64,000 nt of DNA from assembly GCA_017464135.1 (NCBI GenBank), contig JAFUEB010000002.1, forward strand, positions 62,001 to 126,000, read 5' to 3'. Positions 20,492-61,958 of the stretch are shown piece by piece (positions within the stretch are counted from its first letter, which is position 1; each line of letters starts with the position of its first letter). Source of the DNA: Candidatus Saccharimonadota bacterium (lineage in GTDB: Bacteria > Patescibacteriota > Saccharimonadia > Saccharimonadales > Saccharimonadaceae). Position numbers and translations under genes: made by a program. The notes beneath the pieces were generated by a model, which worked only from the letters and a program-made list of their open reading frames with translations, was not told the DNA's origin and ran no database searches.

Positions 20492-20528
20492 AAGTTGTTA
20501 ATTGTGGTGGCGCCGTTGGCGAAGCATT

Positions 20529-20604
20529 TGGTGGCGCCGACTGGACTTGAACCAGTGACACAAGGCTCTTCAGGCCTCTGCTCTACCAACTGAGCTACAG
20601 CGCC
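20529..20604 (-). tRNA. tRNA-Phe (GAA)
   Basis: Acceptor GGCGCTG/CGGCGCC, anticodon stem GAGGC/GCCTT with loop CTGAAGA (anticodon GAA), T-loop TTCAAGT, encoded CCA. It is the first tRNA of the operon. Confidence 0.95.
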
Positions 20605-59563: not shown

Positions 59564-59719
59564 TGGTGCGAATGAAGAGGCTCTAACTCTCGTTGGCGTA
59601 GCCCGAGAGTTAGCGAAGCACAAAAAATGGTGCGAATGAAGAGACTCTAACTCTCGTTGGCGTAGCCCGAGAGTTAGCGAAGCACAAAAATGGTGCGAAT
59701 GAAGAGACTCTAACTCTCG
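59564..59719 (-). repeat. Tandem copies of the tRNA-Gly 3' end
   Basis: The 29-nt sequence covering the tRNA-Gly T-arm, acceptor 3' strand and CCA occurs at 59691-59719 (in the gene) and again at 59628-59656 and 59564-59592, at 63-64-nt spacing. Copy 59564 differs at one base. The spacers (about 34 nt) each carry CTAACTCTCG, which pairs with CGAGAGTTAG of the next copy into a 10-bp hairpin. The bases 59370-59563 left of this hold only the upstream region of the 58062-59369 gene. Confidence 0.88.
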
Positions 59720-59767
59720 ACCTCTTCCTTGGCAAGGAAGCGCTCTAAACAACTGAGCTACATTCGC
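59691..59767 (-). tRNA. tRNA-Gly (GCC), unusual D-/T-loop
   Basis: Acceptor GCGAATG/CATTCGC, D-stem GCTC/GAGC, anticodon stem CTTCC/GGAAG with loop TTGCCAA, T-stem GAGAG/CTCTT, encoded CCA. The D-loop AGTTGTTTA has T at position 19 (normally G) and the T-loop TTAGAGT has A at 56 (normally C), so the tertiary G19-C56 pair is replaced by a U-A pair. -10 TATAAT at 59779-59784. Whether it is a proteinogenic or special-purpose tRNA-Gly is open. Confidence 0.93.
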
Positions 59768-61822: not shown

Positions 61823-61896
61823 GGTGCTTTGGCGGAGTGGTTACGCAGCGGTCTGCAAAACCGCGTACACCGGTTCAATTCCGGTAGGCACCTCCA
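61823..61896 (+). tRNA. tRNA-Cys (GCA)
   Basis: Acceptor GGTGCTT/AGGCACC, anticodon stem GCGGT/ACCGC, loop CTGCAAA, T-loop TTCAATT, discriminator T then encoded CCA. Located between the EamA-type gene and the GT8 gene. Confidence 0.93.
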
Positions 61897-61958
61897 TTTT
61901 TCTTGCGAAAAATTCCGGGCCTTCCGCGTCCCAAGGGGCGGTAGGCACCTCCATTTTT
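61882..61958 (+). repeat. Duplicated 3' end of tRNA-Cys
   Basis: The 20-nt sequence CGGTAGGCACCTCCATTTTT occurs at 61882-61901 (tRNA 3' end plus trailer) and at 61939-61958, the second copy alone and preceded by a GC-rich hairpin-like stretch. This resembles the duplication left by a tRNA-targeted integrase. Confidence 0.85.

Follow-up and report, generated by a model that had tools for sequence, protein, structure and literature searches.

The two short repeats that follow a tRNA-Gly(GCC) gene in the 64-kb stretch of DNA analysed here (the window; G000:C4:62001-126000) are probably the minimal form, with a short hairpin, of a group of RtT-like elements that spans the clade and whose members end in copies of tRNA tails, a reading to which we assign a probability of roughly two in three. 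The window belongs to a Saccharibacteria MAG (G000; 668,675 bases, 4 contigs). The genus-wide set consists of folded, non-coding elements behind many different tRNA genes, and their anatomy, covariation, tRNA-specific arms and tails, and recurrence through the genus are established. Each element lies immediately behind a tRNA gene, in the same orientation, and its end reproduces the 3' end of that tRNA as far as CCA. This copy begins in or just before the T-loop, giving usually 18-21 nt and, in the window units, 29 nt, and a matching upstream arm closes its start into a stem, which encloses either a small hairpin or the larger four-way junction.

All features of the tRNA-Gly array are read on the minus strand, which corrects the preliminary description. 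ARAGORN predicts a single tRNA-Gly(GCC) gene with an encoded CCA at the locus (59691..59767, minus strand; 70.1 bits with Rfam RF00005). The last 29 nt of this gene (59691-59719, minus strand), running from the T-arm to CCA, are the template of the copies, and this tail, CGAGAGTTAGAGTCTCTTCATTCGCACCA, occurs three times in the 64 kb with 0, 0 and 1 mismatch. A direct-repeat search placed the three in-register copies at starts 59564, 59628 and 59691, at steps of 64 and 63 nt; the three head-to-tail copies of the tRNA-Gly 3' half and the 63-64-nt steps that had been described are thus real. Unit 1 (63 nt; 59628..59690, minus strand) is composed of TTTTTGTGCTTCG, a hairpin and tail copy 1 (29 nt; 59628..59656, minus strand), which according to the direct-repeat search has no mismatch to the tRNA 3' end. 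Unit 2, delimited by the same search (64 nt; 59564..59627, minus strand), contains tail copy 2 (29 nt; 59564..59592, minus strand), with 1 mismatch to the tRNA-Gly tail. The order within the window units is a T-run, GTGCTTCG, CTAACTCTCG, GGCTACGCCAA and the 29-nt tail, and the spacers of the two units are near-identical. The 10-bp hairpin CTAACTCTCG/CGAGAGTTAG that had been assigned to the spacer is present, but only in part there: in both units the first 10 nt of the tail copy form the 3' arm, and the 10-nt arm ahead of the loop is their reverse complement. In unit 1 the hairpin (10 bp; 59647..59677, minus strand) has its arms at 59668-59677 and 59647-59656 and GGCTACGCCAA at its apex; in unit 2 (59583..59613, minus strand) the arms are at 59604-59613 and 59583-59592.

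The same locus was compared across a set holding one genome per species, mostly MAGs. The exact 20-nt tRNA-Gly end was present in 87 of the 174 genomes searched, and in 12 of these 87 the contig bears additional exact copies, at spacings of 63-165 nt in every case. The records that share the tail motif are without exception rumen or gut MAGs; apart from Ca. Nanosyncoccus alces, nearly all carry the label Candidatus Saccharibacteria. Other genomes of the genus hold from 0 to at least 3 units behind tRNA-Gly, with varying spacer and loop sequences, and two units, one with a different loop, are present in G051, the nearest relative. An assembly artefact, which had been considered, is contradicted by the 1-2 exact copies that this relative (G051/L072) and other genomes of the genus hold at the same place. 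The absence of an intervening element holds in every one of the 87 genomes carrying the tail: nothing is coded in the 63-165 nt between copies, and the tRNA-Gly copies never flank a coding element. Since copy number, spacing and loops vary between species and no gene is flanked, the array changes between species without flanking a gene at this locus. Of the proposal that static copies never flanking an insert would speak against integration, the second half is borne out; the copies are not static.

Two further observations concern the tRNA-Gly gene itself. In L017/L055 two pseudo-tRNA-Gly units, full-length at 118 nt but changed in the D and anticodon arms, follow the real tRNA-Gly. In addition, the tRNA-Gly(GCC) of the window (59691-59767) and of other loci in the genus is without the near-universal G19-C56 pair: 120 of the 122 fetched tRNA-Gly loci have U19/A56 (GTTTA, T-loop TTAGAGT), and the other 2 have A19/U56 (GATTA, TTTGAGT), a compensatory pair.

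The 28-29-nt repeats and 34-35-nt spacers of the window recall integron-like or CRISPR-like arrays, here anchored by a tRNA, and a 1.2-kb single-ORF stretch encoding a membrane protein lies between two hairpin-plus-tail copies at tRNA-Tyr of G026 (L201). However, the unique spacers of constant length that characterize CRISPR arrays are not what is found, as the window spacers are near-identical and the spacing across species ranges from 63 to 165 nt; the repeat, moreover, differs with each tRNA. Integrons carry cassettes between attC sites, and G026 is the one, doubtful, gene-bearing case seen, its gene also following a Tyr unit in L314. We dropped the integron-like reading for lack of gene cassettes, and consider arrays of either kind extremely improbable.

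In the window's own genome, copies of a tRNA's own 3'-end suffix are present within ~140 nt downstream of 8 of the 31 tRNA genes: Gly-GCC (29 nt), Pro-CGG (26), Tyr (21), Gln-TTG (18), Cys (15), Glu-CTC (13), Gly-CCC (11) and Phe (11). The 15-nt copy behind tRNA-Cys(GCA) (61823-61896) is located at 61939..61953 (G000:C4:123939-123953, plus strand) and has a hairpin with CGTCCCAAGGGG; the 11-nt copy behind tRNA-Phe (20529-20604) is located in a tRNA-operon spacer at 20505..20515 (minus strand). Upstream controls in this genome gave no tail copies except neighbouring tRNA genes. Chance does not account for the copies: a score of at least 10 behind the wrong tRNA was obtained in 2 of 3160 controls. 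Tail copies follow at least nine tRNAs in G051 (Gly-TCC, Thr, Glu, Ser, Pro, Cys, Ala, Asn and Gly-GCC) and 9 of 30 in G160, versus 0 of 947 control comparisons in the latter, and among the relatives they are found at most isoacceptors, with controls at ~0.1%. In another family of the same order, one genome has them at 2 of 29 tRNAs.

Where the T-loop is canonical, the short units begin at C56, which gives a tail of 21-22 nt. Their apical parts recur on arms of different tRNAs: Tyr, Asp, Ser and Ile arms share the loop module TTCTTCGAAT, Gly and Pro arms GGCTTCGCCAA, Gly, Ser and Asn arms GACC..CGGT, and Gly, Thr, His and Cys arms CGTCCCAAGGGG. Of 32 distinct short units, 26 have a stem of 3 bp or more immediately above the arm helix, compared with a mean of 9.7 and a maximum of 18 when the halves were permuted. 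The apical hairpins were also considered as dispersed repeats and rejected as such, since outside tRNA loci they do not exceed chance in the own genome.

Behind tRNA-Tyr and other tRNAs, a larger element of ~140 nt follows a terminator palindrome, and eight examples of it fold as a four-way junction. A covariance model, R1, detected this form in 148 of 170 genomes of the genus, at 1-19 copies each. In an alignment of 31 sequences paired cells amount to 95.3%, and 40 of the 45 pairs have changes on both sides. Double-change cells number 248, versus 31-48 when the partners were slid, a count that leans toward the model because the rows were fitted to it. The pairs comprise 1252 Watson-Crick, 60 G.T and 18 A.C, G.T exceeding A.C on the tRNA-sense strand. 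Among the 30 best R1 hits, 28 have a same-strand tRNA on the contig, nearly always a few tens of nt upstream, and in a second hit set the junction is mostly 36-48 nt behind the tRNA. The isotypes ahead of it are Tyr, Val, Ile, Arg, Glu, Gln, Lys, Ser, Leu, Asn, Pro and Ala, and most junctions are preceded by a strong terminator palindrome. An own-tRNA tail of at least 12 nt was found in 48 of 63 scored copies, versus 2 of 3388 comparisons with other isotypes; the tail mostly starts 18-19 nt from the tRNA end. The 5' arm likewise pairs with its own tRNA over a mean of 6.9 nt, versus 4.6 nt for other isotypes. Beyond the genus, strong R1 hits were confined to a sister genus within the family, and the hits elsewhere are sparse and for the most part weak or incomplete. 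In L313, L322 and L323 a single array contains short and long elements next to each other. The short-hairpin and four-way-junction forms are linked by shared anatomy and co-occurrence, rather than by demonstrated common descent.

These results bear on tandem duplication of tRNA 3' ends by replication slippage, followed by decay and without function. The window units are near-identical tandem copies and L017/L055 hold full pseudo-tRNA-Gly units, as slippage would leave them; yet it does not account for the dense compensatory change in the four-way junction, for the same apical modules on unrelated tRNAs or for the tRNA-specific tails of the larger form. As a full account slippage is already unlikely, and we regard it as very improbable as the origin of the elements.

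Comparison of cores indicates how the elements may have spread. Core identity averages 69% between genomes for the same isotype and 62% for different isotypes, whether in the same genome or not, and single pairs of cores from different isotypes reach 85-92%. For example, the cores of L333, located at a Glu tRNA, and L324, at a Val tRNA, are 92% identical, while the arm and tail of each match its own tRNA. So many matched arm changes with so little core change would be hard to reach by slow compensatory substitution, and we therefore infer that arms are rewritten on arrival. The cores would spread between tRNA genes as miniature elements, and at each new site both arms would be rewritten to match the tRNA there, perhaps through copying of its tail by foldback. 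A mover was sought in the RAYT proteins and rejected as a general one: the Y1/RAYT transposase is present in just 6 of 170 genomes and absent from 164, including the window's own. Viral contigs were scanned for the element cores as well: two scans gave no hit, and the 24 GC-rich hits of a third are due to chance and were rejected by the model.

The jumping of cores between tRNAs with arms and tail rewritten would also be expected of selfish miniature DNA elements that fold as single strands or cruciforms, insert only behind tRNA genes and make no functional RNA. The copy number per genome, the location of the large form past the terminator and the small number of wobble pairs agree with this. 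Against it, no enzyme was found beyond the sparse transposase just mentioned, element copies away from tRNA loci were not found, and the excess of G.T over A.C lies on the tRNA-sense strand. Purely selfish DNA is therefore, in our judgement, an unlikely explanation, though one of some weight.

The preliminary description saw the copies as footprints of integration at a tRNA 3' end. In its full form this would make them attR remnants of phages or islands that integrated there and were later deleted. The tRNA-Gly locus is indeed a genuine integration site: temperate-phage integrases adjoin att copies of tRNA-Gly running from the anticodon to CCA (L120, G067, G043), so that the gene is a real phage attB. 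In L120 (IMGVR_UViG_3300029969_000036; 1114-2187) a tyrosine integrase lies beside an att copy from anticodon stem to CCA, and relatives with 59-69% identity are present in G043, G067 and G084. The 29-nt copies do not fit as its footprint, however. The phage core spans ~47 nt from the anticodon stem and the direct repeat is therefore unequal to it; furthermore, tRNA-site integrative elements are marked by copies flanking a recombinase-bearing element, and the tRNA-Gly copies flank none in the 87 genomes with the tail.

Islands do occur at other tRNAs, which lends the attR reading some support, but their positions count against it. At tRNA-Leu(GAG) the own genome has a 4.4-kb island (L158 6370-10814; G000:C2:266370-270814) that encodes an HTH-type ORF besides several small ones, and G083 has an island of >6 kb with a type III restriction-modification-like pair. 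In G154 the tRNA is followed by the unit, whereas in the own genome and G083 the island lies between tRNA and unit. Both islands end in ...ACCGCGCACCA just ahead of the unit's terminator, and the right ends carry only GCGCACCA or less. As the true island sits between tRNA-Leu(GAG) and the older unit, the unit is not that island's attR; a comparison of island-free G154 with G083 and the own genome likewise ruled out the four-way junction as the right end of the 4.4-kb island. At tRNA-Tyr of G160 (L233/L234, G160:C1:43650-64184), an island of 20 kb is located between the tRNA and two units; it encodes a pair of large serine recombinases in tandem, a C5 methyltransferase-like ORF and a coupling-type ATPase-like ORF. 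Together, these positions indicate that islands enter at the tRNA end, ahead of existing units. In G088 and G173, Tyr copies separated by 34-41 kb turned out to be two full tRNA-Tyr genes. As attR remnants would in addition leave the conserved hairpins and four-way junctions unexplained, this reading is already largely refuted and has very little probability left. More generally, repeats of tRNA 3' ends need not be island footprints.

Returning to RtT-like tRNA-tail elements as the preferred reading, each would most likely act as a structured trailer, made by read-through from the tRNA gene and released at tRNA 3'-end processing, by analogy with E. coli RtT. Two observations count against this. 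Most four-way junctions are located past a strong terminator palindrome, so co-transcription with the tRNA needs read-through, and the small number of wobble pairs means that a palindrome acting at the DNA level would also fit. We further put forward, tentatively and as a possibility of rather less than even chance, that a mobile structured family colonises tRNA 3' ends across the genus, rewriting its closing-stem arms and terminal 18-19 nt from the host tRNA, for instance by self-primed foldback copying, and that enterobacterial RtT is an independent or ancient branch of the same class.

Several known systems resemble these elements in part. The att site of the temperate phage at tRNA-Gly (IMGVR_UViG_3300029969_000036) resembles the window units in taking in the 3' portion of this tRNA as far as CCA, but it has a ~47-nt core and an integrase gene alongside, and the window units have neither. 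REP/BIME sequences, which are moved by RAYT, are likewise short, palindromic, non-coding and numerous per genome, but lack tRNA-tail copies. The literature searched, whose coverage left most subscription papers outside, held no account of such elements in Saccharibacteria.

RtT is an odd, little-understood repeat of E. coli with a vague role. By its anatomy, it (RF00391) is the closest known kind. Like the Saccharibacteria elements, RtT lies behind tRNA genes on the same strand, in tandem at tyrT, and its 3' end copies the 3' end of the upstream tRNA with CCA, as do the window units (29 nt) and the four-way junctions (18-19 nt). The 178-bp repeats of tyrT, annotated rttR/tpr, each have a 19-nt tRNA-Tyr tail at the end and a matched 10-nt arm ~100 nt upstream. 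Tails of 18-19 nt also end the copies in the lysT operon and at lysV (Lys tRNA) and the RtT-like units of the argV-argQ cluster (Arg tRNA); in E. coli K-12 too the tail is tRNA-specific, L427, L429 and L430 (Arg, Lys) carrying that of their own tRNA. In the closing stem of RtT the upstream arm matches the tail start (GGGGAAGGAT in Tyr, GGGAGGAT in argV), as in Saccharibacteria. The window form differs in having no large body and a 29-nt tail, and in belonging to a different phylum. RF00391 gave no match at its gathering score in the window region or at the Saccharibacteria four-way-junction loci, and R1 scored E. coli RtT at 9.5 bits only; homology to RtT and RF00391 membership are therefore not shown. 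A GAGAACC...GGTTCG stretch beside the closing stem, which RtT and the Saccharibacteria elements have in common, is a lead and not proof. In E. coli and its relatives, RtT RNA is described as released from transcripts of tyrT and other tRNA operons (PMC4986893, citing Bosl and Kersten 1991), and it was detected on Northern blots in Actinobacillus (PMC4986893). That the RtT anatomy recurs in Saccharibacteria as a covarying, tRNA-specific family behind most isoacceptors suggests that it represents a general kind of tRNA-linked element.
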